A model generated the notes under the pieces. It ran no database searches. It was not told the DNA's origin and saw only the letters and a program-made list of their open reading frames with translations. This document shows, piece by piece, positions 7,801-52,731 of a stretch of DNA of 64,000 nt. This DNA comes from Morinoia aosen (lineage: Eukaryota > Arthropoda > Malacostraca > Amphipoda > Talitridae): positions 66,974,392 through 67,038,391 of the forward strand of contig CM059559.1 of assembly GCA_030386875.1 (NCBI GenBank). The letters run 5' to 3'. Position 1 is the stretch's first letter. Each line of letters starts with the position of its first letter. A program made the position numbers and the translations under genes.

Positions 7801-10800
7801 TATGCGTGCAGAGTTTAATGCTTCGATAGAAGACATACAAATCTAAGTGTCCATTATTGCCCACAAAGGGCGTCTAGTTCAGAGACGTTAAATTAGTTCT
7901 TGGGGGTTCGACTCAAGCCCATTGCTAGGAGTGACCTTTTACCGTTAGAATGAATTTCAAAATCCGTTTCTATGAACAGCTCTAACATCTTGTATGTCCT
8001 TTTTTTCGAATTTTTGCACCAATATGTTCTTTGAGTTTCACTTGCAAGTTGTTGTGCCATCCACGTTTGGATGCCGGTGACAACGTGATGCTAATAACAG
8101 TGGTTCTTAGAGCACTAATATGAGTGTCAAGTCCAAACGGTAACTCTTTAAAAATATTAGTGTGTGGCTTCGAAAGCAATAGCTATAATTTTCTATTATG
8201 TTTTCCGAAATTTGTGTTTTCGTTTTCTCATAAACGTGAAACGCTCTCTAGTCTCGTGCTATATTCTGTCACCGAATTTTTTCAATTGCTTTTAGAGTCG
8301 ATGACCTACACTGCAGATTATTTTCAAAGCTATGATGTGATCAAAATTTTATTGAGCGCTACTGTCGTGCTACGTGTCACCGGTGGACCTCACGATTGCA
8401 TGATGGCGTTTGCAGAAACTCCGACCCCGAGCTGCTGGAGTACAACATCACGCACTTCCCAGAGGGGGAGTATGAGTACGAGGAGGAGTTCGGGCCCCAG
8501 ATCATCCACAAATATGGGCTCTCCAACAAGGGCCCCTCTGATGTGTTGCAAGTCGAAATCGTCATTCTCTGGCCCATGAAGACCCAAGAAGGTAAGTTTT
8601 TCTGCCATTCACATGGGCGCCGTCAAGAGATGAGATGCCTTTGGCTCAATTCGAAAACATTTGGAAGTGCCAATCCTAGATGATTATTTATGCAGTCAAC
8701 ATGCAATCAAGAATGGCGTTCTAATACTTCATGAAAAAAAACCTTCCTTACATTGACGTAGTATCTCTTTTTTTGGCTTAGTTATTATTTATCCTAAATT
8801 ATCTATCCAACGCTCGGTTTCCATTTATGAAATATGTCCTTAATTTCATCTTGTCATTAAAGCGCTAACATCAAATCATTTTAGGATTACGACAACATTT
8901 ACAAATTAAAATACAGTTGTGCCGAATGTTCGGAGCACAACTTGACCGTAGTCACCGCCTCTAAGTCAGTTTCTGTTACCGCCATATAGATGATTTGTTA
9001 GTTATTCTGCACTAGGGCAATCGGAAGTGAAACTTGTTCCAGAGAGCGAGGCGATAAAATGTTGACTAAACAAAATGAGAATTTGTAAAAGAGAAAAACC
9101 AAACCTGCATTCAGAATTTAGACTTTAACTCGCTATAAACAAATTCCTTCAAATAAGTTCTCCCTCTTACTATCATGCACCTCATCTAGGTTTGCGTGCA
9201 ATGATAAATCTGCACTAAACTTAAGTTACGTTCTGTTTGACTTTTCCTATCATGCCCTACTGGTGTTGTAAATGTTCTTGCGCAAATTTTCAGTTGTGCA
9301 TGAACATGAGAACTGGAGGCAGTCATGCTGATACAGCAGTATCGTTGAATACAGTGCACGTTGGTAGTGACATGTCGAGTTCTAACACATGCTTGGTGAC
9401 AGGCAACGACCTACTGTACCTCCTGGAGCAGCCCTTCACCAGCGGCCCCGTCGTGTGCGACCCCGTGCCTGGCCTCAACATCCTCCAGATGAAATTGGGG
9501 ATCTGACCGTACTGCTGCTGGCCGTACTGCTGCTGGCCGTACTGCTGCTGGCCGTACTGCTGCTGGCCGTACTGCTGCTGGCCGTACTGCTGCTGGCCGT
9601 ACTGCTGCTGGCCGTACTGCTGCTGGCCGTACTGCTGCTGGCCGTACTGCTGCTGGCCGTACTGCTGCTGGCCGTACTGCTGCTGGCCGTACTGCTGCTG
9701 GCCGTACTGCTTCTGGCCGTACTGCTGCTGGCCGTACTGCTGCTGGCCGTAATGCTGCTGGCCGTACTGCTGCTGGCCGTACTGCTGCTGGCCGTACTGC
9801 TGCTGGCCGTACTGCTGCTGGCCGTACTGCTGCTGGCCGTACTGCTGCTGGCCGTACTGCTGCTGGCCGTACTGCTGCTGGCCGTACTGCTGCTGGCCGT
9901 ACTGCTGCTGGCCGTACTGCTGCTGGCCGTACTGCTGCTGGCCGTACTGCTGCTGGCCGTACTGCTGCTGGCCGTACTGCTGCTGGCCGTACTGCTGCTG
10001 GCCGTACTGCTGCTGGCCGTACTGCTGCTGGCCGTACTGCTGCTGGCCGTACTGCTGCTGGCCGTACTGCTGCTGGCCGTACTGCTGCTGGCCGTACTGC
10101 AGCTGGCCGTACTGCTGCTGGCCGTACTGCTGCTGGCCGTACTGCTGCTGGCCGTACTGCTGCTGGCCGTACTGCTGCTGGTCGTACTGCTGCTGGCCGT
10201 ACTGCAGCTGGCCGTACTGCAGCTGGCCGTACTGCAGCTGGCCGTACTGCTGTTGGCCGTACTGCTGTTGGCCGTACTGCTGTTGGCCGTACTGCTGTTG
10301 GCCGTACTGCTGCTGGCCGTACTGCAGCTGGCCGTTCTGCTGTTGGCCGTACTGCTGCTGGCCGTACTGCTGTTGGCCGTACTGCTGTTGGCCGTACTGC
10401 TGTTGGCCGTACTGCTGCTGGCCGTACTGCTGTTGGCCGTACTGCTGCTGGCCGTACTGCTGCTGGCCGAACTGCTGCTGGCCGTACTGCTGCTGGCCGT
10501 ACTGCTGTTGGCCGTACTGCTGCTGGCCGTACTGCAGCTGGCCGTTCTGCTGTTGGCCGTACTGCTGCTGGCCGTACTGCTGCTGGCCGTACTGCTGTTG
10601 GCCGTACTGCTTCTGGCCGTACTGCTGCTGGCCGTACTGCTGCTGGCCGTACTGCTGCTGGCCGTACTGCTGTTGGCCGTACTGCTGCTGGCCGTACTGC
10701 TGCTGGCCGTACTGCTGCTGGCCGTACTGCTGCTGGCCGAACTGCTGCTGGCCGAACTGCTGCTGGCCGTACTGCTGCTGGCCGAACTGCTGCTGGCCGT

Positions 10801-13800
10801 ACTGCTGCTGGCCGTACTGCTGCTGGCCGTACTGCTGCTGGCCGTACTGCTGCTGGCCGTACTGCTGCTGGCCGTACTGCTGCTGGCCGTACTGCTGCTG
10901 GCCGTACTGCTGCTGGCCGTACTGCTGCTGGCCGTACTGCTGCTGGCCGTACTGCTGCTGGCCGTACTGCTGCTGGCCGTACTGCTGCTGGCCGTACTGC
11001 TGCTGGCCGTACTGCTGCTGGCCGTACTGCTGCTGGCCGTACTGCTGCTGGCCGTACTGCTGCTGGCCGTACTGCTGCTGGCCGTACTGCTGCTGGCCGT
11101 ACTGCTGCTGGCCGTACTGCTGCTGGCCGTACTGCTGCTGGCCGTACTGCTGCTGGCCGTACTGCTGCTGGCCGTACTGCTGTTGGCCGAACTGCTGTTG
11201 GCCGTACTGCTGCTGGCCGTACTGCTGCTGGCCGTACTGCTGCTGGCCGTACTGCTGCTGGCCGTACTGCTGCTGGCCGTACTGCTGCTGGCCGTACTGC
11301 TGCTGGCCGTACTGCTGCTGGCCGTACTGCTGCTGGCCGTACTGCTGCTGGCCGTACTGCTGCTGGCCGTACTGCTGCTGGCCGTACTGCTGCTGGCCGT
11401 ACTGCTGCTGGCCGTACTGCTGCTGGCCGTACTGCTGCTGGCCGTACTGCTGCTGGCCGTACTGCTGCTGGCCGTACTGCTGCTGGCCGTACTGCTGCTG
11501 GCCGTACTGCTGCTGGCCGTACTGCTGCTGGCCGTACTGCTGCTGGCCGTACTGCTGCTGGCCGTACTGCTGCTGGCCGTACTGCTGCTGGCCGTACTGC
11601 TGCTGGCCGTACTGCTGATGGCCGTACTGCTGATGGCCGTACTGCTGCTGGCCGTACTGGTGCTGGCCGTACTGGTGCTGGCCGTACTGCTGCTGGCCGT
11701 ACTGCTGCTGGCCGTACTGGTGCTGACCGTACTGGTGCTGACCGTACTGGTGCTGACCGTACTGTTGCTGACCGTACTGTTGCTGACCGTACTGCTGCTG
11801 GCCGTGCTGCTGCTGGCCGTGCTGCTGCTGGCCGTGCTGCTGCTGGCCGTACTGCTGCTGGCCGTACTGCTGCTGGCCGTACTGCTGCTGGCCGTACTGC
11901 TGCTGGCCGTACTGCTGCTGGCCGTACTGCTGCTGGCCGTACTGCTGCTGGCCGTACTGCTGCTGGCCGTACTGCTGCTGGCCGTACTGCTGCTGGCCGT
12001 ACTGTTGCTGGCCGTACTGTTGCTGACCGTACTGTTGCTGACCGTACTGCTGCTGACCGTACTGCTGCTGACCGTACTGCTGCTGACCGTACTGCTGCTG
12101 ACCATGCTGATGCTAAATGCTAATTGTAATGCTGCTGTTCGTACATACTCGACGATGTACGTACCTGTCGATGTACGTACCTGTCGATGTACGTACCTGT
12201 CGATGTACGTACCTGTCGATGTACGTACCTGTCGATGTACGTACCTGTCGATGTACGTACCTGTCGATGTACGTACGGACCTGTCGTTTTACGAACGTAC
12301 CTGTCGTGGTACGTTCGCGCAAAAGTAACTAATATTCTTCACAAGCATCATTTGGGACGGATTTTTTCATATTTAGCGACTAACTCGGTACAACTGAGAC
12401 ATAACAGTAAGAGTAGCGCGTGTAAAAGTTATACCCTTGTTTGCGCCGCGTACGATAACGCAAATGAAGAAAACGTTCGTTTTTGTTAAGGAAAATCTCG
12501 AATTTACCAAAGTTGACGTGCTTCTGCTCTGCTGTTCAGGAAGCCTAGACTGTGCGTTTTAGGTTATGGCTTTGAAAATACTGGTAATTAGATATATTCG
12601 AGACATCTTATATCATGTATAGTAAAAATAGATTAAAATTTCATTCTTGCATCGGTTGCAACGTGGAATTTCTGCCTTCTACATAGTCATGGTTCGTACA
12701 ACATATTATTCTATCCTTAGCGAAATATGTCTTGAAATCAGCGACGTTGTGGCAAGCGAGCGCCCTCTGCACTTGTGTCATGTGTGGTGTCTACTCGTAA
12801 GTTCAGTCAACTTCTGTCTTCAATAATCCCGCCTCTCAAGGCGCCAAAAACATGGCTGCGAACAGGGCTGAGCAGCGAGTGAAATACTGACCCGCGACTT
12901 ACAACGTGGATTTAAATACGAGCAATAAGCGCGCTCCGATTTTTTCACTTCGTCGCTGGTAAAGTAATGCAATTTCTAAGCCAAACAAGAGGGAATATTG
13001 TGTCAAATTTACGGTAAATGTAATTTCAATTTCTATAAATCGTATCCTCTTGTGTATCACGATTAGCTACCGATTAACCGAACTGAAAAGAAGGAAAAAG
13101 AGAAACAGTTAGTTTCGATGAAGATGATACAAACACCATCGATGATTTTAAAATTTCTTAACAAAAGTTTAAATGTCTTAACAAATATGTAAATGTCTTA
13201 ACGCATTGAACGTGGTAATCTGTGTTGTTGCTAAGTTTCTTGATCATCACCGTCATTGACTTCGGCCCTCGGTGAAACAAAATAACACTATACATTTTTT
13301 GGAAGTAGATTCTCAAGAAGTTCAGTAAAAAATGCAAATTTTGCTTCGAAAAATAACAAAATTTGTTATTTAATTGAAATACATTTTTTCACAGCTCACA
13401 AGTCGTGCGGAGACCTACAAACGTCTCAGGCTTCAGGCAGGACTCGGAGGCAGCACAGCTGCTGCTGCTTCATCGTCCTCGTCTTCGAGTTCATCCTCTT
13501 CTTCATCGTCCACTTCATTCTCCTCTTCTTCATCGTCGAGCTCAGCGTCGTCTGGCGGCCGCGGCTACTCCAGCGAGGCGAGCAGGTCCTCCTCTCATCA
13601 CAGGTCGAGCGGCGGTGTCGCCTCCAGGGGAGGATATGCTGAGTCAGGCCAGGGCTCATATGACTCGACTTCAGAGTTTGAAGGTTCAGGCAGCGGATTT
13701 GCTCAATCAGGTAGCTTCGGATATTCATATCCTGCAACTCTAGAAGGAGGAAGAGCTTCCAGCTCCCAATATTCGCAGTCGAGGACGGCTTCAGTAGGTC

Positions 13801-17867: not shown

Positions 17868-20282
17868 ATGAGGAGGGGCGGTGGAGGCCCGCGGCCTAAC
17901 CGGGCACGCACCGGGAAGGAGCAGAAGCAGCGAGCAAAGGAGCCAACAAAAGTGACAACCCAGCCGCCAAATGAAGTTAAATCTATCAGGACGCCTCTCG
18001 CCGCAAGGACAGGCGAGCCGGCAAGTGTCTGTACAACCACGTGTGGATCTTCGCTGATGGCAACGAACCAAGCAGATCATAATGGAGATCACCAAAAAAA
18101 AAATATTTCCGACCTCATTAACAACATAGAGAAAAACCTCGACCAGCTGGTCAGATCGATAAGCAGGGGGTTACCAGACCGTGACATCCCGAAACCGAAT
18201 AGTGAAGACAGTAACTCCAACATACCTCCAACCTCCATCGAGGAAAGAATTAAAAATCTAGAAAACACCATCGAAGAAGTAACCCGAGCGCTATCAGCCC
18301 TGCTTCCACCTCCGGAGGATCAGGAGAAGGGTACCCAGAATACGAGACGTGTCAGGAAGAACAAGTTTGTTCCTCTTGATGTTACTGAACAGCCTCTACA
18401 GCGGGGCTTCACGCGCTTCTTCGTCATGAAGTTCACACCCGAAACAAAACGTAAGATAGACCCCTACTCGGTGAAAAACGTAATTCGCACAGCCACCGGA
18501 TCTCCGCCCATCACCACCAGTGGAAGGGAGAGCTTCACACTCGAGGCCAGAGACAACAGACAAGGCCAGGCACTGTTGACCATCACCAAAATAAACGGAG
18601 TGCCATGTGAAGTCTTCGCCCACCCAAAACTCAATAAATCTAAGGGACTCATTTATGTCAACGAATACAACATGGAGAACTTTAGCGAATTCGAAACAGG
18701 GCTCAAGGAAAACTATAATATCAGTGAAGTAATTGATGCCACATTCATCAAAACGAGATACGAGCAAACAAGCGCGATAATCCTAGAATTTGAATCAGAG
18801 TCTCCCCCTGATTTCATATACATTCCAGGCGAACGGTCGGACACCCGAGTATACCCATATATTGACAAACCGATGCACTGTGCCAACTGCCAGATGTACG
18901 GGCACACGAAAAAGCGCTGCAGCCGAGCCACAACCTGTGGAAGGTGTGGAGCGGTGGGGCACGGCAGCAGTCAGTGCCTTGCATCTGGGGCTGAATGCAT
19001 TCACTGTCACGGCCCTCACCAAGTTAAAGACAAAACCTGCCCTAAGCAAATTGAGGAGGAACAAATACTGGCAATCCAGAACAACCACAAAGTCGGGAAA
19101 CGCCGAGCTAGACAGATGCTGAACGGCCCAACTGAGTCAAATGAAAAACGTGCCACTCCCTACGCCACTCACTTCAAATGTACTTTAGACGCAAATGAAA
19201 AGCGCAAAATTTCACCGTGGGTGCTCGAGCGAAGCCTTCAACTTGAGTTGGGAGAAAAGCCGAAGAGAATTACATCCCAGGATAAGGACTCATTCATCAT
19301 TGAAATCGCCACAAAAGAACAAAGTACCCTAATCCGTAACATAAAAACCATAAATAACATACCTGTCTCCATAGCTGAACACCCCTACTTCAACTCGGTC
19401 AAAGGTCTCGTATATCTATACGAGTACGACCTCTCCAATTTCGAATGCTTCCGGGAGGGACTCATGGAAGACCGTGGACTGAGTGATGCAGTGAGAGCTA
19501 CCTGGATCAAACCAAAAAACCCGGCCTCCCAAGCAATCCTACTCACATTCAGGCAAAATCTCCCAAACTACATAACCATACCCGGAGAACAATCACAAAC
19601 CAAGGTATTTCCATACGTGCCACGCCCCATGTTCTGCAAGAAATGTCTGGAGTATAACCACACCCAGAAACGATGCACCAGATCTGAAGCGGTATGTGCG
19701 AGATGCAATAGCATAAACCACGATTCCGGTGAATGCACAAGCATCAAAATAGAGTGCCACAACTGCGGTAAAGACCCCTTTGCAGGATCCTATAAATGCA
19801 TTGAATTTAAATATCAACAGGAAATCCTTGCAATCCAGCACAAATACAAACTGAGCAGAGTGCAAGCAAGACAAAAACTGGACAGTGAACAACACCAATA
19901 TCACAGGAGCTACGCTTCTGCAGTAACATCTGCCAGTGCTCAAGCACCCAGCCGACAACCTCCAGTACCGTTTGAACAAGCGGGGACTGTTCCTCAAGCT
20001 CTTCCACCAGGGCCCTCTCAGCTTTCAGACGGTACGCAAAGGAAAAGAAAAAACTCCGGAAGCAGTGAGAAACCATCAGGAAAAAGGCAGGTAGCCGAAG
20101 CAGTCTACGCTGACCCAAGCACAGGAGAAATATATTCTACCCCCGTACAAATTACACCAGATTACGACTCTGCAATGAGCGACAGCGAAATTACAAGTGA
20201 GAACAACCCGACCGTTAGAAGCGAAACCAGAAGAATTTACAACCAGTACCAAAAAGAAGTCGAACAAAACAAAGATGAATAA
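17868..20282 (+). CDS. LINE-1 ORF1, gag-like with duplicated module
   Basis: The first ATG is at 17868 (aacATGAGG), giving 804 residues. The N terminus is basic and disordered. A gag-like fold plus zinc knuckles appears twice. Module 1 starts near TRFFVMKF and reaches CANCQMYGHTKKRC (nt 18879) and further Cys/His knuckles. Module 2 starts near HFKCTLDANEKRK (nt about 19170) and reaches CKKCLEYNHTQKRC (nt about 19637) with its own knuckles. Both share GLxYxxEY, YIxIPGE and QEILAIQ-type motifs. LINE-2 ORF1 has one such module. ORF1 binds element RNA in related LINEs. The stop TAA lies inside the ORF2 start, in the overlap ATGAATAA. Confidence 0.88.
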   Translation: MRRGGGGPRPNRARTGKEQKQRAKEPTKVTTQPPNEVKSIRTPLAARTGEPASVCTTTCGSSLMATNQADHNGDHQKKNISDLINNIEKNLDQLVRSISRGLPDRDIPKPNSEDSNSNIPPTSIEERIKNLENTIEEVTRALSALLPPPEDQEKGTQNTRRVRKNKFVPLDVTEQPLQRGFTRFFVMKFTPETKRKIDPYSVKNVIRTATGSPPITTSGRESFTLEARDNRQGQALLTITKINGVPCEVFAHPKLNKSKGLIYVNEYNMENFSEFETGLKENYNISEVIDATFIKTRYEQTSAIILEFESESPPDFIYIPGERSDTRVYPYIDKPMHCANCQMYGHTKKRCSRATTCGRCGAVGHGSSQCLASGAECIHCHGPHQVKDKTCPKQIEEEQILAIQNNHKVGKRRARQMLNGPTESNEKRATPYATHFKCTLDANEKRKISPWVLERSLQLELGEKPKRITSQDKDSFIIEIATKEQSTLIRNIKTINNIPVSIAEHPYFNSVKGLVYLYEYDLSNFECFREGLMEDRGLSDAVRATWIKPKNPASQAILLTFRQNLPNYITIPGEQSQTKVFPYVPRPMFCKKCLEYNHTQKRCTRSEAVCARCNSINHDSGECTSIKIECHNCGKDPFAGSYKCIEFKYQQEILAIQHKYKLSRVQARQKLDSEQHQYHRSYASAVTSASAQAPSRQPPVPFEQAGTVPQALPPGPSQLSDGTQRKRKNSGSSEKPSGKRQVAEAVYADPSTGEIYSTPVQITPDYDSAMSDSEITSENNPTVRSETRRIYNQYQKEVEQNKDE

Positions 20283-23200
20283 CGGAATCTGCATCCTACA
20301 GTGGAACTGCCAGGGTGTCCGAGCCAAAAAGAGCGAACTTCTGGAACTAATAAACGTCCATAACCCATATATTGTTGCTCTCCAAGAAACAAAACTATGG
20401 CATAACTCTAATTTTTCCATACCCCATTACAATCTGCTTACCAAACATGGCCACTTTAAAGTCACGCCTCATGGTGGAGTCGGACTGCTCATTCACGAGT
20501 CTATCTCTTTTCAAGAAGTCGCCATAACCTCTACCATCCAGGTCATCGCAGCCACTGCCCACCTCACTCGACCGATTACATTCGCGTCCCTGTACACCTC
20601 AAGAAGTCACCCCATAACCCAGGAAATAATGAACGAAATAATAAATCAACTACCTCCGCCAATCATTTTGATGGGGGACTTTAACAGCTATAGCACAACT
20701 TGGGGTTGTGAAACCACAGATACCCGTGGCCGAACAATAGAAGAATTCATAGACCAACATAATCTAACACTTCTCAACACAGGAGCATACACAAGAGTCT
20801 CTTACAACTCTGAGTCAGCCAATTGACCTAACCCTGGCATCTCCTCGTCTGAGTGCGGACTTGGTATGGGAGACTTGTAGATCTCCGGAAGACAGTGACC
20901 ATATTCCCATCATAGTACGACTAATTAATGCCCAACGTAACAATCAGAAACGCTGGATGTGGAACAACAAAAAGGCAGACTGGGCGTCTTACGAGGCGCA
21001 CCAAAACTGGGAAAAACTTAAAATCTCTGAGCATACATGCTCTGAAGCCCTCAGCACCTTTATCGACACTTTAACAGCAGTAGCAAATGATTGTATCCCA
21101 ACCATAGAACTCACAAAATTCTTTCCGAAGCCCTACTGGAGTGCGCAGCTGACTCAAACACGCTCCAACCACGAACGCCTTTATCAAAAATTCAGACAAA
21201 CGAAATCGGTACAAAATGCCCTACGCTGGAAAAGAGCCAGGGCCATCCACAGGAACCTTCTGCGAGAGGAGAAGCGGAAGGCATGGACAGCATTTGCCAG
21301 CACATTTACGAAGGATACTCCAATGACCCGTATTTATGAAAATATCAGAAAAATCAAAGGCAGACCTCAAAGACAGTTATCAATATTACAAGAAAATAAT
21401 ATTAGCTACTCCACCGTTCCAGAAATAGCGAACAAACTAGCAGAAACATTTAGCTCTGTTAGCAGTGCGGCTAATTACTCTCAGGAATTCTTACGAAGAA
21501 AACAACGTGCAGAAGCTAACCAACTGGATCTCTCATCGAACAACAATGAAACCTACAACAAAGCATTCTCTCTTGCCGAACTGGACTCTGCCTTAGATAC
21601 TGCAAAAAACACATCACCTGGGGCAGATGGGATATCATACCAAATGCTTAAGCATCTTCCAGAAATTGGAAAACAAAACTTACTGGCTCTCTACAACAAA
21701 TTATGGTTCCACTCATATTATCCCCCTACCTGGAGAGAAGCAGTAATAATCCCTTTTCAAAAGCCTGGAAAGACTCCACATTCGCCTCACAACTACAGAC
21801 CAATTGCGCTTACGAGCTGCATTGGGAAGGTTCTGGAACGCCTCGTCAACAACAGACTCATTGACTATTGTGATATGCACGGTCACCTCAGCAATATCCA
21901 GTGCGGGGGTCGCCGGGAAAGGTCCACCGTTGACCACCTAATCCGTCTTGAAACTGTTATCAGGACTTCTTTTGTCCGCAATGAACACTTCGTCAGCGTT
22001 TTCTTTGACCTAAAGAAGGCATACGATACCACCTGGAACTACGGCATTATGCGAGACCTCCACCATCTACATCTCCGGGGAAGACTGCCTCTATATATCC
22101 AGCAGTTTTTACGGGACCGTACCTTCCGGGTGCGAGTAAATAACCATCTATCCAATCCGTTCCCCCAGGAAGAAGGGGTCCCACAGGGGTCCGTTCTTTC
22201 AGTTACCCTCTTCATCATCAAAATCAACGAAATAGCTTCACAGATCCCCAAAGATCCGCGTTTCCATGCATCATTATATGTGGACGATTTCCAACTTGGC
22301 TACCGACACAGTGACATCGGCATTATTGAAGCTAAACTCCAAGAATGCATCAACAGAATGGCACTGTGGACGCAAAACAATGGATTTTCCTTCTCGATGG
22401 ATAAATCTAAGGCTGTCCATTTTACTTCCCTTCCAGGCCTTCAAGTGCCACCTACTTTGAAAATCAGCAACAAAAACATCGAATTTGTGGACGAAGTTAA
22501 GTTTCTTGGGCTCACGTGGGACCGAAAATTGACCTGGAAAACCCATATCAACAACATCAAATCAAGCTGCAAGAAGAACTTAAACATAATCAAATCAATC
22601 TCTTCCCACGACTGGGGTGGAGACCAGAACACTCTACTCCACTTGTACAGAGTATTCGTCCGATCTAAACTGGACTATGGCTGCATCGTATACAGCTCCG
22701 CTGCGACATCAACACTCAAACTTCTGGACCCCATTGTAAACGATTGCCTACGATATGCAACCGGAGCCTTCAAATCAACACCTATTCCCAGCCTACAAGT
22801 CATTTCCGGCGAAATGCCCCTCCAGCTACGAAGACAGCAACTCTCACTGAAATACTACTTGAAAATGAGAAGCCACTTGTCCAACCCAGCCCGCAATTTG
22901 GCCATACCACCTACCAACAGAAGACTGTTTGTAAACAAGCAGCTCACGCCGTCTTTCGCTGTTCGCACCCACGAATTAGTTGAAAACCTTCAGCTTGGCC
23001 AACTGCGGATAAAGCCCTCGTTCTCGTACCGATTACAAAACGTTGATGTACCCACATGGAATACTATCCCAGCAAAAGTGAACCAGGACCTAACCTTCTA
23101 CAAGAAAGATTTCACCCACCCAGCATTGTACGTCCAGGAATACCAGAGGCTGCGACGGGAGGAATACCGAGGATACATACCGATATTTACGGACGGCTCT

Positions 23201-24010
23201 AAATACGACGATCGAGTCGGTGCTGAGGCGGAGTGCGGTGGAACAAGAAGGACAATATCTCTCCCCAGCGCTGCATCAATATTCACTGCGGAACTACACG
23301 CACTTGAACTGGCTTTGAAAATCATTCGTGACCACAGTGGGGATAAGTTCGTAATCTATTCAGACTCTCTAAGCGCTCTGACATCACTGCGAAACGCACG
23401 CACTTCCCATCCTCTTGTACGGATCCTCAAACACCAAATTGACGACATATTCAAATACCGCAAAACTGTTAAACTGTGCTGGATTCCGAGTCATGTGGGT
23501 ATAGACGGCAACGAGTCGGTCGACAAGCTTGCCAAAACTGCCGCACTTCGCCCTGCGGAAAGTGTAATGATCTTTTATCAAGACTGGTACCCAATTATAG
23601 CTCGCAAAATCAATGTCCGATGGAAAGAAAACTGGCAACAAGAGGGAAACTTTTCACAGAACATCCGACCTGACCCGTATCCCCTCAAGAAGAACGAACT
23701 ATCCCGAAGAAATGAAGTCATTCTTAACCGTCTCAGATGTGGCCACACACACCTTACCCATGGATACCTAATGAACAACGCAGTACAAGAGCCCCCACCC
23801 GGCTGTCCTCTCTGCCTACGCTCCCGCCTTACGGTGCACCATGTAATCATGGACTGCCCAGCCTTACATCACGCAAGACGTCGCTACATCAGCCTGTTCG
23901 CGGATAACAATCGCCCACCTCCTTCTATCAAGGACGTGTTGGGGTATGAAGCTCCTATTGCCGAACTCCTAGAATATCTCCGGAAAATCAACGCATATGA
24001 CCTCATATAA
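20275..24010 (+). pseudogene. LINE-1 ORF2 (EN, RT, RNase H), frameshifted
   Basis: The ATG at 20275 overlaps the ORF1 stop by 8 nt. The APE-type endonuclease begins ILQWNCQGVRAKKSELLEL, with an LQETKLW motif and LMGDFN. The frame stops at 20824-20826 because of one extra A near 20821; the other frame continues IDLTLASP, then SDHIPI. The reverse transcriptase has LYVDDF (Tyr at nt 22277). RNase H shows FTDGSK, FTAELHALE, IYSDSLSAL and WIPSHVGIDGNE, so its acidic residues are present. The C terminus has CPLCLRSRLTVHHVIMDC. Apart from the one shift, the 3.7 kb is open. Confidence 0.9.
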
Positions 24011-24180
24011 ATCGTTCATTAACCACTTGGAAAGCATGTATGCCTCGAACCATCTGCCAAAACAAACCGTTACGCTCACTACAAACCCTACACTATGAAG
24101 AAGCTCCCTGGAAGCACTATAACCTACGTGCGTTCATGAAAGATCGGCATCACAGCACCAGAGAGTATTCCAAATAAGCG

Positions 24181-24274
24181 GCCGGGCGCTCTGTGCTACC
24201 ACTCTCATCTTTTGAGGGGGTTCCAGCACGGGTAAGGCGCTCGGCTAAAGAGAGGGAGGGCTGCTGGAACCCCC
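24181..24274 (+). ncRNA. Candidate 3' UTR pseudoknot of LINE-1
   Basis: Helix A pairs 24181-24189 (GCCGGGCGC) with 24237-24245 (GCGCTCGGC): 9 bp, one G-U. Helix B pairs 24216-24228 (GGGGGTTCCAGCA) with 24262-24274 (TGCTGGAACCCCC): 13 perfect pairs. The strand order A-B-A'-B' is a pseudoknot. GGGTAAG lies between B and A', and a TAAA...GGGAGGGC segment lies between A' and B'. The same layout with compensatory changes is in LINE-2 at 47135-47219. A role in recognition by the reverse transcriptase is inference. Confidence 0.7.
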
Positions 24275-24397
24275 ACTTGGAGGTTTTAGCTAGCGCCATT
24301 CATGATTACCTAGTGTAAACTAGGGGGGTCCATAGTTGCAAATTGCTGGTGACCCTGGTGGAAACTCAACCCTAAATTTATTATTATTATCCTCACG

Positions 24398-41524: not shown

Positions 41525-43375
41525 ATGGAAAATTTTCCCGCTATATCTTCGGTGACGACTGGACCCTCACGCACGGACACCTGTACTGAATCTTCCTCAA
41601 CTTTGCCATTGGCGCAGCAACCACCATCACAGTCTTCTGCGAGTGGTGACGCTGAAGCCGGGCCGTCTGAGAAAATGAATATTATCCTTGAACCTCATGT
41701 TCCCCCACCTCAGAGACAAAGGGTGCAACCACACCGACACAAGCGCCGTGTTCGGCGGCAACATTTGTTCGCAGAGCCCCTGGCCAATATCGATGATAAC
41801 GAAAATGCAGCTCTCCCAACGGAATTTAAAAGATTTTTCATTATTAAAACCAAGGATGGATCGCCCATGAGCCACGTTGACGTGATTGAAGCCAATCGTC
41901 AACTGTGCAGGGGACTTGGTGGCAGACCTGCGAAAGTAACAGAGACCCGGAACGGCGGTCTATTGGTTGAGGTGCGCAACCAGCACCAAAGTGCGGTTAT
42001 CTTAGGCCTGCGGTCCCTTGCGGGAGTTGGCGTGCAGGTGTCTCCTCATGACAGACTTAATGAGTGCAAGGGTACCATATTGTACGACAACTATCCTCAG
42101 TATAGCGACGACCGCCTCCTAGAGGAACTGAAGCAATTCGAAGTGAAAGCATTATACCGGATCAAGAGATTCGAGCGGGGAGTTTTGATGCCCTCGTCAA
42201 TATACATCCTCACTTTTGACCGCTGCCACCTACCACAGTCTGTAGACATTGGATGGACAAGATGCCTCGTGCGCCAGTACGTGCCGAAGCCCCGCCGCTG
42301 TTTCAAGTGCCAGGACTTTGGGCATGGTGCCAGGTCCTGCCGTGTTGAGCCTGGCGTGTGCGTCAACTGCGCGGAAGAACAGCATGAACTGCCCTGCACC
42401 AAAGCTCCCCGATGTGCCAACTGTGGTGAGCAACATCCTGCTAGCTCTCAGTCTTGTTTCTATTATAAACTTGAAGAGGAAACCCTAGCGGTGCAGACAA
42501 ACCAGCGCATCAGCTATGGCGAGGCTAAGCGCGTGGTTGGCAGTCGTTTCAATAAAACCCGAGTTACGTATGCAGAGAAGGCTAAAACCCCTCAAGCGAT
42601 GCCCACCAACCGTGTTCCCGGCCCTGCTGGCCGGTGCCAGCTGAGGAATACTGCAGTGGAACGGGAGCCGGGTGCTGGTGGAGCGGCCATCCCAAGAATA
42701 TCTGCAACTGAAAAACAACCACCTGCATCCAAAAGTAGAGCGAAAAGAAGTCCAACGGAAACTTTGGTGGCGGACCAGCCAAACACACCTGGTGAACCTT
42801 TGAGAGCAATACCTTCTATAATAACCTCGAGAAAGCGTACACAGAGCGGCACGTCGCCGACCCACAGCAACAACATGGGTAATGTGGCAAAAGCACCTAG
42901 AGTCACCGAAAGAGCTCTTGATGCACTTCCAAGCCAGGCAAAGATTATTCCGGAGCCGGAGCCGGCAGCCCCGCCTGGTGGTATATCGGAACCAGAATGC
43001 AAAGTGGATAGAGTGCCCCGACCAGGCGTGCGGATGCCCGGCAGTGGAAGTGGGGCTGTGGGGAGCGCTGGACGTGACCTTTCGGTTCCTCGTGCGGACG
43101 GTCGCAGGTCTGAGCGGGATAGTGAGCGGCATATTGTGACGCAGCGTGTTCGCTCTCTGGAACGCGTCACAATTGTCCCAGAAGATTTCGCGTCGCATAT
43201 GTTGAAGAAATTTCCTATCCCGCGTGGCTTCCCAACTAAGCCAACTCCCGCAGTGCCAATTCATACATGGAATGATAGACCCATAAGCCCCGTGCCGCCT
43301 GATCTGGCAACCGCTCTGAATGAGGGTGCTGAGAAGGACTCCACGCGTGCTAAATCTCGAACTGGTAAACCGTGA
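41525..43375 (+). CDS. LINE-2 ORF1, gag-like
   Basis: It begins at ATG 41525 (MENFPAISSVTTG), 616 residues. An N-terminal disordered region is followed by FKRFFIIKTKDG and a gag-like fold, then zinc knuckles around CFKCQDFGHGARSC, CVNCAEEQHELPC and CANCGEQHPASSQSC. The last third is Pro/Ser/Arg-rich. It has one gag module, unlike LINE-1. Its stop TGA (43373-43375) overlaps the ORF2 start. Confidence 0.88.
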   Translation: MENFPAISSVTTGPSRTDTCTESSSTLPLAQQPPSQSSASGDAEAGPSEKMNIILEPHVPPPQRQRVQPHRHKRRVRRQHLFAEPLANIDDNENAALPTEFKRFFIIKTKDGSPMSHVDVIEANRQLCRGLGGRPAKVTETRNGGLLVEVRNQHQSAVILGLRSLAGVGVQVSPHDRLNECKGTILYDNYPQYSDDRLLEELKQFEVKALYRIKRFERGVLMPSSIYILTFDRCHLPQSVDIGWTRCLVRQYVPKPRRCFKCQDFGHGARSCRVEPGVCVNCAEEQHELPCTKAPRCANCGEQHPASSQSCFYYKLEEETLAVQTNQRISYGEAKRVVGSRFNKTRVTYAEKAKTPQAMPTNRVPGPAGRCQLRNTAVEREPGAGGAAIPRISATEKQPPASKSRAKRSPTETLVADQPNTPGEPLRAIPSIITSRKRTQSGTSPTHSNNMGNVAKAPRVTERALDALPSQAKIIPEPEPAAPPGGISEPECKVDRVPRPGVRMPGSGSGAVGSAGRDLSVPRADGRRSERDSERHIVTQRVRSLERVTIVPEDFASHMLKKFPIPRGFPTKPTPAVPIHTWNDRPISPVPPDLATALNEGAEKDSTRAKSRTGKP

Positions 43376-46300
43376 ACACCTGTATCCAATGGAATATTAG
43401 AGGATTTCGACGTAACTACGGAGATTTGAGGGCCCTCCTTGAGGAGTACCAACCTTGGTGCGTTTGCCTCCAGGAGACCCTTCTTGGAAGCCTGAACCCT
43501 ACACCCCCAAACAACTATTGCATTGAGGTTTTTTCCCCGGTGCCTAATCCAGTGCCCGGAACGGGACTTGCAATACTTGTGCGGAGAGATGTGGGTTATA
43601 GTAAAATAACAATCAATACTGGACTACAGGCCCTGGCCCTCCGTTTGTGTATCGGGCAACGTATGGTCTCCGTATGCAATATCTATACATCACCTGGAGA
43701 TCCCTTAACCTCACAGGACCTCATCCTTCTCAGTAACCAACTAGCAAGACCAGCGTTCATTCTTGGAGACGTAAATGCCAAACATGTTCGTTGGGGCAAT
43801 TTGATAAATGATCGGCATGGCAGAGCGGTGGAAGAGTTTTTGGATGCTACCGAGTTGTGCCTGTTGAACACCGGAGCCCACACTCACTTTCATGTACAAA
43901 GCGGTACCTCCTCTGCAATCGACGTCAGTATGTGCACGCCCGACATTTTTCCTGATACGCAGTGGTCTGTGCTTGAGGATACGTGTGGTAGTGACCACTA
44001 TCCTATCCTTTTGAGTTTGGTACGGTACCAACCTGAGCCCGTGGATCCACGCCTCAATTTTAAAAAGGCAAACTGGAAAAACTTCGAATCCTGCTCGCGA
44101 ATGGAAGAACCAGATGAGAGTTGCAGTGTGGATGAGCTGGTCGATCACTTTGTCAGAACAGTGCGTGCGGCTGCCGACGCTGCCATCCCAAAGTCTCAGG
44201 GAGGCTGCCAGAAACATCGTGTTCCATGGTGGAACAACGAGTGTGCAATAGCTAATTGTGAACGGAAGCGAGCCTTGCGGCGCTACCAACGCACTAAAGA
44301 GCTGGCCCATAAGATCGCCTACAACCGAGCGAGGGCTCGAGCGCAACTAGTAAAGGATGTAGCGCGTAAGACATCGTGGCAGAAGTATGTCTCCGGCCTG
44401 AATACCGACACCCCTATGGCCAAGGTATGGCAGAGAGTGAACAAAATGAAGGGAAATTATGGACACAGGTCACTGTGTTTGGAAATTGATGGCTCTCTCA
44501 CGGCAGATCCGGATCGCGTAGCAGAAGCTATGGCTCGGAGCTTCTGTCGTGTCAGCAGCGGGTATCCCTCCTTGGCTCTCAGACGTCAACAAGAGCGGCA
44601 ACCACTTGATTTTTTGACTAATTCCACCTACTCTTACAACGATCCCCTCACAATGGTAGAGCTTTATTGTGCCTTAAAAAAGTGCAAAAACACAGCCCCC
44701 GGGCCTGATGGTGTTTACTATCAAATGATGAAAAATGTGGATCATACGGCAATATCATTCCTTCTCTATATATACAACAAAATCTGGAGCACACACACAT
44801 ATCCGCAGCAATGGCGAACAGCAACAATCATGGCTTTTGCTAAGCCCAACAAGCCTGCCTCTAACCCAGATAACTATCGACCTATTGCCCTGACTAGCTG
44901 CCTTGGTAAGCTGCTGGAAAAGATGGTAAATGTACGGCTCACGCAATGGCTGGAGGCCGAAGAACTGTTAAATCCCGTACAGTTTGGTTTCCGACAACAC
45001 CGCGGAACCATAGATGCTCTGCTCCGTCTACAGAACTACCTGGTAACTAACCTCGCAGAACGCCGACAGACTGTATGCGTTTTCTTCGACCTGCACAAGG
45101 CCTATGATACTGCGTGGAGATATGGGATCCTCAAATCATTGCATGGATATGGACTCCGTGGTAATATGGCCTTGTATATCCAGGAGTTTCTTGGTGAGAG
45201 AACCTTCCGTGTTAGAGTGGGTGGTACTTTCTCCTCACTGCAGCTTCAGCGTGAAGGCCTGCCTCAAGGCAGCGTCATGAGTTGCTCGCTATTTAATGTC
45301 GCCTTGAACGGTATTACCTCGGTCCTCCCCCCTGGCATTTTAGCCTCTCTGTATGTGGACGATTTTATGCTGTACTCCTCATCTGCATTATTGCCTGCAG
45401 TGATTCGCAGAATGCAGAGAGCCATCAACAAAGTGAACAACTGGGCTCTTGAACATGGCTTCACCTTTTCTACTGAGAAGACTGTAGGCCTTCATTTCCA
45501 GGGACGTGGCCGATGTGATCCCCCTCGACTGGTGCTGGGGGAGGGACGGGTGGCTTTTGCGCACAGTGTCAAGTTTTTGGGGATGACTGTGGATGATAAG
45601 CTCACCTGGAAACCTCACTTGGCAGCCCTCAAGGTTGAGTGTGCTCGGAGAATGAATCTCCTTAAGTGTTTATCCGGAGTAGCGTGGGGAGCAGACCGAA
45701 TGACGCTGTTGCGACTATATAGAACTCTTATCAGGAGTAAAATAGACTACGGCTGCATAGTATATCAATATGCAAAAGAATCGACTCTGGCTAAACTGAA
45801 CCCAGTGCACCATGCAGCTATCAGGCTAAGCACTGGTGCTTTTCGATCCTCACCCTCTTACAGCCTGTGCGTGGAGAGCGGAGAGCCTCCTCTGTGGCTT
45901 CGACGTGTGCAACTAACCTTGCAGTACCTAGCCAGGCTGGAACAAGTCCCGTTGTCTCCTGCATGGGTTAGTGTGCACGCGCCCCTTGGACGACACCTGC
46001 CTTTTCCTTATTTCATACCTTCGTCTGTGGACTACCCTGTGATTACAGCTGCTATGCAATTGAGACCCATGCAAATACTTCCAGTACTCTTAGAAAATAC
46101 TGCGACGTGGCGCGTCCCTATAGATAGTTTTTGCCCCGGATGCCGGATGCCCAAGAAGGAATCCGTGCCGGACTACATCCTGAAGGGAATTTTTATGGAC
46201 CATGTAATGGAAAAGCACGCTAAGTCTGTAAAGTTCTACACTGATGGATCTAAAACGGGAGATGCTGTAGGATGTGCTGCTGTGTCTGGGGAAAGGGTCA

Positions 46301-47067
46301 GTGCAAGGAAGCTGCTCCCAGAGTCATCAATTTTCACAGCAGAATTGTACGGTGTGATGGAGGCGCTGAAGCTGATTGAGGAGTATCCATGTGGGCCCTT
46401 CACTATTTTCGTTGACTCAAAAAGTGTAATTGATGCCATACAGATGTATAATAGTACGCACCCGCTCATTGCTGAAATTGTCGTGATGCTAATTAACTTT
46501 GCAAGTAGACGCAAGAGTGTCATGCTGTGCTGGGTGCCCGGACATGTGGGAGTATCGGGCAATGAGCGAGCTGACCATGAGGCTAAACGGGCTGCGGAGA
46601 CAAACGAGGAGACGCTGAACTCGATGGTCCCTTTCCGAGACTACTACCCACGGATAAAGGCTGCAGTGAGAAGCTTGTGGCAGCAGGAGTGGGATAGAAC
46701 AATTAACAATAAATTAAGAATTATAAAACCCACCGTACGTGAGTGGACATCGTCTAGTTGTCGCCCTCGTCGGATGGAGGTGATACTCTGCCGCCTTCGT
46801 ATTGGCCATACTCGTTTGACGCACGGGCACTTGATGGAGCGACAGCCGCAGCCTCGATGTGAGCGGTGCCACGTTCCTCTGACTGTCAAACACTTTCTTG
46901 TTGAGTGCCCCCGGTATGCTGCTGCCAGGAGTGTGTGCTTCCCGAGACTGCGAGGTCCTGATGAGGATGTAATGACCGGAATGCTCAAGGAAATCGAGCG
47001 TTCAGCTTTCAGTGTGACGGCGCTGAAAATGTTTCTAGAGAAGTGCAACTTGATGTCTCAAATTTAG
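43372..47067 (+). CDS. LINE-2 ORF2 (EN, RT, RNase H), intact
   Basis: An open frame of 1231 codons. The endonuclease starts at once with NTCIQWNIRGFRRNYGDL and has CLQETLL, ILGDVNAKH and GSDHYPIL. The reverse transcriptase has SLYVDDFML (Tyr at nt 45352). RNase H shows FYTDGSK, FTAELYGVMEAL, IFVDSKSV and WVPGHVGVSGNERADHE. The C terminus has CERCHVPLTVKHFLVECP. There is no ATG before the endonuclease; the overlap with ORF1 is GTGA, so translation may begin by reinitiation at GTG or another non-AUG mechanism. Confidence 0.92.
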   Translation: MNTCIQWNIRGFRRNYGDLRALLEEYQPWCVCLQETLLGSLNPTPPNNYCIEVFSPVPNPVPGTGLAILVRRDVGYSKITINTGLQALALRLCIGQRMVSVCNIYTSPGDPLTSQDLILLSNQLARPAFILGDVNAKHVRWGNLINDRHGRAVEEFLDATELCLLNTGAHTHFHVQSGTSSAIDVSMCTPDIFPDTQWSVLEDTCGSDHYPILLSLVRYQPEPVDPRLNFKKANWKNFESCSRMEEPDESCSVDELVDHFVRTVRAAADAAIPKSQGGCQKHRVPWWNNECAIANCERKRALRRYQRTKELAHKIAYNRARARAQLVKDVARKTSWQKYVSGLNTDTPMAKVWQRVNKMKGNYGHRSLCLEIDGSLTADPDRVAEAMARSFCRVSSGYPSLALRRQQERQPLDFLTNSTYSYNDPLTMVELYCALKKCKNTAPGPDGVYYQMMKNVDHTAISFLLYIYNKIWSTHTYPQQWRTATIMAFAKPNKPASNPDNYRPIALTSCLGKLLEKMVNVRLTQWLEAEELLNPVQFGFRQHRGTIDALLRLQNYLVTNLAERRQTVCVFFDLHKAYDTAWRYGILKSLHGYGLRGNMALYIQEFLGERTFRVRVGGTFSSLQLQREGLPQGSVMSCSLFNVALNGITSVLPPGILASLYVDDFMLYSSSALLPAVIRRMQRAINKVNNWALEHGFTFSTEKTVGLHFQGRGRCDPPRLVLGEGRVAFAHSVKFLGMTVDDKLTWKPHLAALKVECARRMNLLKCLSGVAWGADRMTLLRLYRTLIRSKIDYGCIVYQYAKESTLAKLNPVHHAAIRLSTGAFRSSPSYSLCVESGEPPLWLRRVQLTLQYLARLEQVPLSPAWVSVHAPLGRHLPFPYFIPSSVDYPVITAAMQLRPMQILPVLLENTATWRVPIDSFCPGCRMPKKESVPDYILKGIFMDHVMEKHAKSVKFYTDGSKTGDAVGCAAVSGERVSARKLLPESSIFTAELYGVMEALKLIEEYPCGPFTIFVDSKSVIDAIQMYNSTHPLIAEIVVMLINFASRRKSVMLCWVPGHVGVSGNERADHEAKRAAETNEETLNSMVPFRDYYPRIKAAVRSLWQQEWDRTINNKLRIIKPTVREWTSSSCRPRRMEVILCRLRIGHTRLTHGHLMERQPQPRCERCHVPLTVKHFLVECPRYAAARSVCFPRLRGPDEDVMTGMLKEIERSAFSVTALKMFLEKCNLMSQI

Positions 47068-47134
47068 CCAGGAAAGGGACAGCGTAATCAAGGAACTTTT
47101 CACGTCTGAGATGTGGATGACTAAACTACAATAT

Positions 47135-47219
47135 GGCCGGGTGCGCTGCGTAGATGCCTCTGGGGATTTCAGCGTGGGTAAGGCGCCCGGTCATAAATGG
47201 GTGGGCAGCTGAAATCCCC
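47135..47219 (+). ncRNA. Candidate 3' UTR pseudoknot of LINE-2
   Basis: Helix A pairs 47135-47144 (GGCCGGGTGC) with 47183-47192 (GCGCCCGGTC), 10 bp with two wobbles. Helix B pairs 47162-47173 (GGGGATTTCAGC) with 47208-47219 (GCTGAAATCCCC), 12 perfect pairs. Order is A-B-A'-B' as in LINE-1. The GGGTAAG linker and TAAA..GGG.GGGC segment are conserved. Two base pairs of helix B differ from LINE-1 by paired changes on both strands. Confidence 0.7.
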
Positions 47220-47535
47220 TACGGGGTTTTTGGCTGTCCTGTGTTTCGCGGATTGTGCGTCGCTCTGTAGATGATCTCTTCAAAGATCAACTAGGACTCT
47301 TATAAAATGACAATGATGTGGGTGGCAATTGAAGCGGTCTTTATGATGGCTGCTGTTGTGTTTCCATGATGGTTATTGTGACAAACTTTGAACAACATTT
47401 ATATAGTGTGCTTTTGTGTAACGATGTGAATCCAGTATTTTAAACTGTGAGATCTACGGCGCGATATAGTACGAATTACTGAAGCGCTAGCAAAACAATG
47501 CTAATACTACTACTACTACTACAGAATGTGGGCAA

Positions 47536-51955: not shown

Positions 51956-52718
51956 CCGACCAGTTTCTTCCGGCTGGAAACTGAAATGCTGCTCAGAAGC
52001 GTTTGTTGAACTCACATTACGAAGATTGCCAGAATATTATGAATACATGAATGAGTTGATAGAAATAACAATTCAAGACTTCTCGCAATAACTGATTTGA
52101 CAAGTATGCGAGTTGATGAGTTATGGGGAGGTTGAGAAACAAAAATCTTTGGAGAGTACTTATGAGTTCATAAAAGTTTTTGTACTCGGCTGGCTTTAAT
52201 CGAACGTCTTTTCTAGTTGTCGCTGTAGAACGATTTTAATCATTTGTAAAAATACTTGCCTTCTATTCGAGTAAAATTTTTCTGGAGAAAACAATTTTCA
52301 TTGGCAGTTATGCCGGAACCAAAAACTAGGTTTTAAACTCTTGAGGCCGGTGTTTTACTCTACGTTGTTGATGTTGCCGAGTTTTTTCTAGTGGCTCTTA
52401 AATTTTCATCCTGTACTCCCTCCATTACTCTGAGTTGTACACAGGAAGCAGCGATGTCTGAACTCGAAAGTTTGTTTCTTTATCTTGAGGGATCACAACC
52501 GAGTTTTAATACCGACTCTGTTATAGTTGGTTGGTCGAGAAAATAAACCCTTCGTGAGAGGCATTCCATACTTAATTATCCAACCTTAATTAACGCTTTG
52601 ACTGCGACTACTAAATATTTTCTTACCACATTTTAGCTTTGATCTCGTTCCGTTTACTGTGTTAGTTCCGTAAAATAAGTGCTTGCCTTCAAACTCATCA
52701 GAGCTCAGAACAAAATTC
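51956..52718. other. No gene recognised
   Basis: Flank of the third LINE. No feature supported. Confidence 0.5.
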
Positions 52719-52731
52719 ATGTACTCCTATT

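Follow-up and report, generated by a model that had tools for sequence, protein, structure and literature searches.

Do two LINEs with widely divergent proteins carry the same selected RNA structure in their 3' untranslated regions (UTRs), and what might such a structure do for them? The question is raised by a stretch of 64,000 nucleotides of the Morinoia aosen genome (hereafter, the window; assembly GCA_030386875.1, contig CM059559.1, positions 66,974,392 to 67,038,391), for which an original prediction, made from the letters alone, had proposed two interleaved helices, A and B, shared by the 3' UTRs of LINE-1 and LINE-2. We found both helices at both loci, in the strand order A-B-A'-B' in each LINE, and helix B, described as 13 perfect pairs in one LINE and 12 in the other, indeed consists of Watson-Crick pairs throughout; the two matched changes in B that distinguish the LINEs (G-C to A-U and C-G to U-A) are also as described. 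The picture of a single pseudoknot was right about A and B but incomplete, as a short helix D had been overlooked, along with a hairpin C farther downstream in which the B' strand takes part. Likewise, the segments GGG.GGGC and GGGUAAG, presented as single-stranded, are not simply unpaired: GGG.GGGC can join hairpin C, and part of GGGUAAG lies in helix D.

The two LINEs and the features of the block

Endonuclease, reverse transcriptase and RNase H are encoded by both LINE-1 and LINE-2, the endonuclease being of the APE type (Exo_endo_phos), and the two ORF2 proteins share 37% identity. Copies of LINE-1 end in (TTA)n, while the eight LINE-2 loci all extend to a common 3' end that carries a (TAC)n tail, three of the eight being 5'-truncated within the locus. 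The structured region (hereafter, the block) begins with helix A 169 nt past the ORF2 stop in LINE-1 and 64 nt past it in LINE-2, and ends ~100 nt (LINE-1) or ~300 nt (LINE-2) before the tail. All 40 matches to the LINE-2 block that were scored in the window's own assembly are identical across 99 bases, and the block was not seen in the 3' UTR of LINE-3 (52679-54082), which lies in the same window. The features, with coordinates in the window, are as follows.

20197-20826: open reading frame with the LINE-1 endonuclease domain, directly upstream of the 20861..24010 frame
20861..24010, + strand: LINE-1 ORF2, reverse transcriptase and RNase H part (from the ORF list; Pfam RVT_1 5.8e-31, RNase_H 8.6e-12)
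24180..24190, + strand: LINE-1 helix A, 5' strand, 11 pairs with 24236-24246 (from pairing across families)
24191..24195, + strand: LINE-1 helix D, 5' strand, CUGUG (from pairing across families)
24216..24228, + strand: LINE-1 helix B, 5' strand, 13 Watson-Crick pairs with 24262-24274
24227..24231, + strand: LINE-1 helix D, 3' strand, CACGG, sharing two bases with the end of B
24236..24246, + strand: LINE-1 helix A, 3' strand
24262..24274, + strand: LINE-1 helix B, 3' strand (B'), doubling as the 5' strand of hairpin C
24263..24290, + strand: LINE-1 hairpin C, GCUGGAACC/GGUUUUAGC plus 2 pairs (from folding, strands read back)
43372..47067, + strand: LINE-2 ORF2 with endonuclease, reverse transcriptase and RNase H (from Pfam domains)
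47132..47144, + strand: LINE-2 helix A, 5' strand, 13 pairs with 47183-47195
47146..47150, + strand: LINE-2 helix D, 5' strand, CUGCG
47162..47173, + strand: LINE-2 helix B, 5' strand, 12 Watson-Crick pairs with 47208-47219
47173..47177, + strand: LINE-2 helix D, 3' strand, CGUGG
47183..47195, + strand: LINE-2 helix A, 3' strand
47203..47239, + strand: LINE-2 hairpin C, 47203-47214 with 47228-47239 plus 47216-47219 with 47223-47226, taking the B' strand
47208..47219, + strand: LINE-2 helix B, 3' strand (B')
47459..47487, + strand: LINE-2 3'-terminal conserved hairpin, GCGC..AGUA..UACU..GCGC, a separate module shortly before the (TAC)n tail

Interleaved stems of at least 10 and at least 12 pairs (G-U allowed) also arose in dinucleotide-shuffled 3' UTRs, in 4 of 500 shuffles for LINE-1 and in 29 of 500 for LINE-2, so each LINE alone is weak evidence. 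That two interleaved stem pairs occupy the same aligned place in LINE-1 and LINE-2 is not weak evidence; the local alignment of the two UTRs scored 46, against a maximum of 36 among 1000 shuffled pairs. As read from the sequences, the case for the structure is carried by further members of the families, not by either LINE of the window alone.

Other hairpins lie nearby. The 3'-terminal hairpin of LINE-2, sought with a loose pattern within 800 nt, was found at 44 of 92 loci, which belong to LINE-2-type families (L059, L071 and L072 among them), and at 0 of the 11 LINE-1 loci (L009-L018, L051), and in the LINE-2-type families this hairpin may act as the usual stem-loop for 3' recognition. Its inner stem shows covariation when inspected by eye (AGUA/UACU in LINE-2, AGUU/AACU in L022 and AGUAGG/CCUACU in L023). 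Near the 3' end of LINE-1, positions 24309-24324 form a 6-bp hairpin with a GNRA-type loop (CCUAGU-GUAA-ACUAGG), the letters of which are identical in eight of ten aligned LINE-1 copies (L012 and L017 differ). Elsewhere in the window, a long tandem array (9389-12328) with LLLAV and SSSTA repeats on opposite strands and a strong AT skew has the appearance of a minisatellite.

Occurrence of the block in the genome

The search space was the window's own assembly (1.99 Gb, 29 contigs). The main motif, which consists mostly of the linking segments plus the first bases of A' and C, gave 1,478 matches and a LINE-1-type motif gave 487, with 0 matches for the reversed control in both cases; patterns for a changed B' and a changed A' gave 14 and 39 matches, respectively, at places that partly overlap. 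What had been noticed in two LINEs of one window extends, that is, to nearly two thousand motif matches in many families. Outside the animal genome, the motif pattern had 0 matches in viral contigs and an exact 21-base pattern had 0 in prokaryote genome contigs. The LINE-1-type pattern matched viral contigs twice; judged by eye, the surrounding sequence is of another kind and has no such helices, and both matches were rejected; an ORF2 search of the viral contigs gave three pattern stretches and 0 confirmed relatives.

A sample that does not depend on the motif came from an RNase H search of the genome, in which 150 hits were scored of 5206 candidates and 34 downstream stretches of 431-451 bases were fetched, hand-picked across scores and reading-frame lengths. 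The block was intact in 14 of the 34 (L099, L102, L106-L110, L113, L114, L117, L119, L123-L125) and partial or cut in four (L105, L121, L122, L126); L105 is counted as cut, though it was scored as no match, since the sequence fetched for it stops within the opening bases of the block. Within the 431-451 bases read, the block was not seen in 16 stretches, ten of which (L093-L098, L100, L101, L103, L104) resemble one group by eye. The block-bearing LINEs are a subset of the RNase-H-bearing ones, with the block on the sense strand and in the 3' UTR. The four top hits, all on contig C27 (~56.7, 65.9, 67.9 and 71.6 Mb; E 3e-48 to 8e-35, far above the LINE hits), were excluded from this sample; our guess is that they are bacterial RNase HI, from a symbiont, a contaminant or transferred genes.

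At 24 loci where the ORF2 match was short or missing, no SINE carrying the block was recognised in the 330 bases upstream; when these 24 heads were compared with the other collected loci, several matched nothing and a few groups shared upstream sequence without an ORF2 match. Three loci (L053, L066, L092) look 5'-truncated within the block by eye, as if reverse transcription sometimes halts there.

Pairing and covariation across families

Alignment A2 holds 40 rows. For it, 46 loci were tried and nine failed the extraction pattern; LINE-2 from the window replaces L001, L023 and L119 were restored by hand, and L034, L043, L058, L063, L070 and L108 are out. Near-identical copies and truncated or degenerate loci are excluded, as are L117 and L123 (from the protein side), and a B-deleted copy (L004:2500-3099) enters no count. 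Under the structure A+B+D+outer C, 93.0% of the cells of A2 are paired and 13 of 35 pairs are changed on both sides, with 49 double-changed cells vs. 16.6 +/- 4.7 in shuffles (0 of 500 as high), and control structures slid along the alignment pair 36-49%. Helix B is the best-kept helix (96.7% of cells paired), and further members do not lose its pairings: at least 11 of its 12 pairs are kept in 38 of the 40 rows, and in 11 of the 12 rows that came from the protein side (the twelfth, L121, keeps five).

Shared ancestry was allowed for by a tree-aware null, in which the changes of each column were redistributed on the tree in 2000 runs. With 68 rows, the fraction of paired cells exceeded this null in every helix: 92.8% vs. 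79.2% in A (P 0.001), 98.4% vs. 87.5% in B (P 0.0005), 94.1% vs. 75.0% in D (P 0.001) and 86.8% vs. 68.1% in hairpin C (0 of 2000). With all 73 rows, the result was 0 of 2000 for A, B and C and P 0.007 for D. These runs omit L052, L053, L078, L066, L085 and L092 (truncated or not LINE-like), L004, L020, L056 and L121 (duplicate or degenerate) and loci that misfit the patterns; L050, L060, L061, L079 and L084 are present in the 73-row run and absent from the 68-row run and from the R-scape-like test described below. The view that a shared structure of LINE 3' UTRs has been under selection, as originally proposed, is supported by pairing above the tree-aware null in A, B, D and C.

Double changes give a more mixed result. 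The number of pairs changed on both sides was not above the tree null in any one helix (68 rows; P 0.20 for A, 0.12 for B, 0.71 for D and 0.41 for C), was so at P 0.0485 for A and B jointly, and stood at P 0.06 for all helices. Double-changed cells exceeded the null in B (0.0065), in D (0.038) and in all helices together (0.0065), but in neither A (0.27) nor C (0.34). Both sides of a pair changed on a single branch seven times; five of these double changes keep the pair (four in A, one in B) and two break it. The kept ones are, in A, U-A to C-G and G-C to A-U (L023 group) and, at the end of the helix, C-G to U-A (L113 and L119, separately); and, in B, G-C to A-U (L076). At one pair of B, the partner tracks a change in B' (among 73 rows, 49 U-A, 15 C-G, 7 U-G and 2 unpaired). 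Over A, B, D and C, there are 191 G-U cells vs. 37 A-C cells and 118 other mismatches (12 G-U vs. 2 A-C within B), and this excess of G-U over A-C points to RNA of the sense strand.

An R-scape-like test that used the G statistic with APC, against two nulls that comprised 100 alignments each, gave E<0.05 for none of the 46 helix pairs and for none of the 6786 pairs overall. Of the covariation expected above phylogenetic background, only half was borne out: the pairing of whole helices exceeds the tree null, but no individual pair is significant and the number of pairs changed on both sides is not above that null in any one helix. Much of the covariation divides LINE-1-like from LINE-2-like types, and we think that significance at the pair level is missing because many of the double changes are single events that separate these main types. 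The block has what is expected of a conserved, sense-strand RNA structure in a LINE 3' UTR, although no single pair is significant in the R-scape-like test.

A conserved island beside divergent ORF2

The block is far more alike between several LINEs than their ORF2 proteins are: ORF2 vs. block identity is 35% vs. 90% for LINE-2 and L059, 37% vs. 93% for L048 and L059, 31% vs. 90% for L048 and L039, 30% vs. 83% for L088 and LINE-2, and 33% vs. 88% for LINE-2 and L048. The blocks of LINE-1 and LINE-2 share just 58% identity. In profiles of 60-base bins, L048 and L028 reach 0.92 and 0.77 in the block and 0.19-0.52 in all other bins, and L059 and L028 reach 0.98 and 0.92 in the block, falling to 0.75 and 0.78 in the bins next to it and to 0.10-0.57 in the rest. 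Seven of the eight profiled pairs have block bins of 0.87-0.98 and 0.74-0.92; the eighth pair, L059 and the LINE-1 copy L013, has 0.64 and 0.44. Some pairs are also alike beyond the block (L028 and L024 in the ORF, L059 and L054 in the downstream UTR), and in pairs such as L048 and L028 the block is the sole alike stretch outside the ORFs.

Two loci, L059 and L054, combine a LINE-1-like ORF2 (57% and 51%, respectively) with a LINE-2-type block, L059 also having the LINE-2-type terminal hairpin. Such a mismatch between ORF2 and block implies either extreme constraint or exchange of a 3' cassette; the two loci are possible cases of natural 3' UTR exchange between LINE lineages. The deep branches of a tree built from an ORF2 pile-up are unsure (the place of L018 in it is presumably an artefact, as this locus probably holds a second LINE), and the tree was, therefore, left unused for dating losses.

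A competing hairpin and two proposed states

The B' strand can pair alternatively with a strand just downstream of it, forming hairpin C, which in other LINE-1 copies such as L013 amounts to 12 uninterrupted pairs. Because hairpin C uses B', helix B and much of C (its inner part) are mutually exclusive; the outer part of C is compatible with most of B, and the two together give the layout A-D-B-D'-A'-C-B'-C', of the kissing type. Two nested hairpins, A+D and C, make up the minimum-free-energy fold (z -4.31 and -4.74), which is without B, the program being one that cannot show pseudoknots.

The energy balance between the two states varies among rows. Before any pseudoknot penalty, the two states are equal in LINE-2 (full C, -24.7; outer C plus the B duplex, -24.7 kcal/mol), and the means over 40 rows are -17.5 kcal/mol for full C and -25.6 kcal/mol for outer C plus B, likewise before the penalty. 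For LINE-1, C as drawn in the alignment scores just -2.0, and hairpin C folded alone gives -13.6 in the window copy and -20.3 for a string typed after other copies. At one base shared by the two helices, all 15 of the 15 LINE-1-type rows show B following the change, C follows partly (8 G-C, 7 G-U), and 15 rows that have the usual base there show an A-C mismatch in C; dual compensation at this base, as it appears in the aligned rows, is suggestive only. Taking conservation and energy together, we favor the reading that the block is a two-state pseudoknot RNA.

What the block may do

The structure of the block is supported by the aligned sequences, and its likeliest role, because of the analogy with R2 and with stringent LINEs, would be recognition by the LINE's own retrotransposition machinery; on the same analogy, a role in target-primed reverse transcription is plausible. 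In the mechanism that we propose, a sense-strand RNA block of ~110-120 nt in the 3' UTR of many RNase-H-bearing LINEs would fold into hairpin I, made of helix A (10-13 bp), an asymmetric loop with GUAAG and the short helix D, and hairpin II, made of helix C. The B strand, placed in the 3' part of the hairpin I loop, and B', which lies within hairpin II, would form 12 bp and so a kissing-type pseudoknot, and in the alternative state B' would pair within hairpin II. ORF2p and/or ORF1p of the same element may bind the block and so choose the template for target-primed reverse transcription, and the exchange between B and C may set apart a form suited to translation and one suited to copying. Taken whole, i.e., a structured 3' UTR RNA recognised by the LINE's own ribonucleoprotein for target-primed reverse transcription, with B/C exchange between states, this is our preferred explanation, to which we would give slightly less than an even chance. 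We are more doubtful about a wider version, in which a two-state switch common to many LINE lineages of one genome is exchanged as a 3' cassette, selection acts on both B (the kissing pseudoknot) and C (the closed hairpin), which decide between translation and copying of the same RNA, and distant ORF2 proteins (~35% identical) use one licence.

Several results count against our preferred explanation: the lack of significance for single pairs, the uneven energy balance among rows, LINE-3 and the 16 of 34 sampled stretches in which the block was not seen, and the absence of a recognised SINE carrier. The main difficulty for recognition by the LINE machinery is that the block is internal, 100-300 nt from the 3' end; further, the terminal hairpin of the LINE-2-type families fits the usual recognition site of a reverse transcriptase better. 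Because of this internal position and the second, terminal hairpin, a host-factor role stays a serious rival, even if on balance a rather unlikely one. Under it, the structure would be real but read by host proteins, and would promote the nuclear export, translation or stability of LINE mRNA in the manner of constitutive export elements or exonuclease-resistant RNAs. Nearly the same RNA carried with ~35% identical ORF2 proteins could mean one host reader, and a block that follows the stop codon but precedes the terminal hairpin, at a distance from where reverse transcription begins, would suit such a reader too, whereas the 16 of 34 other LINE stretches of the same genome without the block in the length read speak against it. 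It is also conceivable, although improbable in our judgement, that the nested fold (A+D; C) alone is functional and that helix B arises incidentally, from the B strand and the strand of C being near-repeats of each other. This fold is the one predicted by free-energy minimisation, A+D+full C is preserved almost to the same degree in A2 (89.4% of cells paired, 12 of 35 pairs changed on both sides), and one L004 copy without the B strand retains C. However, B is the best kept of all helices, in A2 (96.7% of cells) and relative to the tree-aware null (98.4% vs. 87.5%), its partner follows the change in B' at the pair described above, and the intact copies of the L004 family (L023, L034, L035, L047) retain the B strand.

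Far less probable than either is that the block has no RNA function, its likeness reflecting recent common descent or exchange of 3' UTR cassettes and its inverted repeats acting at the DNA level or being inert. L059 and L054 do look like products of exchange and covariation is not significant at the pair level, but pairing exceeds the tree null, G-U is in excess over A-C, and the conserved island is confined to the structured part (e.g., in L048 and L028). Least probable of all is a self-cleaving ribozyme, HDV-like or new, for which the A-B-A'-B' topology, reminiscent of nested-pseudoknot ribozymes, might be cited. In the HDV layout, a stem-loop (P3) is expected between the B-like and A'-like strands, and the block is without it; with E allowed up to 10, Rfam still yields no match to a ribozyme family, and copies extend through the block into ORF2. 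LINEs do use HDV-like ribozymes, but at their 5' ends according to the excerpts of PMC3774820 and PMC4035085, whereas the block lies at the 3' end.

The natural variants that keep the pairing in many families make the block a compact, testable RNA, and the apparent chimeras (LINE-1-like ORF2 with a LINE-2-type block) would make the specificity of recognition directly testable. To our knowledge, the way in which an APE-type LINE selects its own RNA has been worked out in few cases. If the two pairings truly alternate, the block would be an RNA switch in a retrotransposon.

Comparison with known systems

Rfam 15 gave 0 matches at the gathering score; at E up to 10, the weak matches listed, two and four in number, were to other families and fell well short of the scores that these require. 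None of the literature titles and abstract starts covered, among which subscription papers are thinly represented, describes the block, which is weak evidence of novelty. We file the block as a new form of structured LINE 3' UTR element, outside the R2 and HDV-like families.

Frameshift and readthrough pseudoknots sit a few nucleotides past a slip site or stop codon; a pseudoknot of this kind was considered and rejected, as helix A begins 169 nt (LINE-1) and 64 nt (LINE-2) past the ORF2 stop. The HDV-like ribozymes of R2 and L1Tc also have interleaved helices in LINE RNA, but they lie at the 5' end, are self-cleaving and have a helix order different from that of the block. Among stringent LINEs, UnaL2 has a stem-loop in its 3' tail. 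In the zebrafish elements ZfL2-1 and ZfL2-2, the ORF2 protein specifically reads a 3' stem-loop (PMC4176376, in part). The block resembles these in being a conserved RNA structure in the 3' region of a LINE; unlike their single terminal stem-loop, the pseudoknot here is extra and internal, and the terminal hairpin of the LINE-2-type families is the nearer match. The silkworm element SART1Bm belongs to the R1 clade. Like the LINEs studied here, it is an ORF1/ORF2 element with important internal parts of the 3' UTR, which is needed in trans for its retrotransposition (PMC7265360, in part); the word pseudoknot does not occur in the text of that paper, and SART1Bm is set apart from the block by description, not by sequence.

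The pseudoknot-hinge-stem of the R2 3' UTR is comparable in being a pseudoknot in a LINE 3' UTR. In the excerpts of PMC12180492, R2 3' UTR pseudoknots are contacted by the R2 protein and compensatory mutations restore insertion; in those of PMC12180492 and PMC12222951, the pseudoknot-hinge-stem of avian and turtle A-clade R2 is bound by the protein and needed for target-primed reverse transcription. R2 places its pseudoknot at the very 3' end, a position that the block, ending ~100 nt (LINE-1) or ~300 nt (LINE-2) before the tail, does not share. Unlike R2, which is compared here by description only, LINE-1 and LINE-2 have an APE-type endonuclease and an RNase H. Finally, while the ordered RNA of R2 is small, i.e., the 3'-terminal 65-67 nt, the block described here is internal and 110-120 nt long; its helices are long, its layout is of the kissing type, and one of its hairpins competes with helix B.
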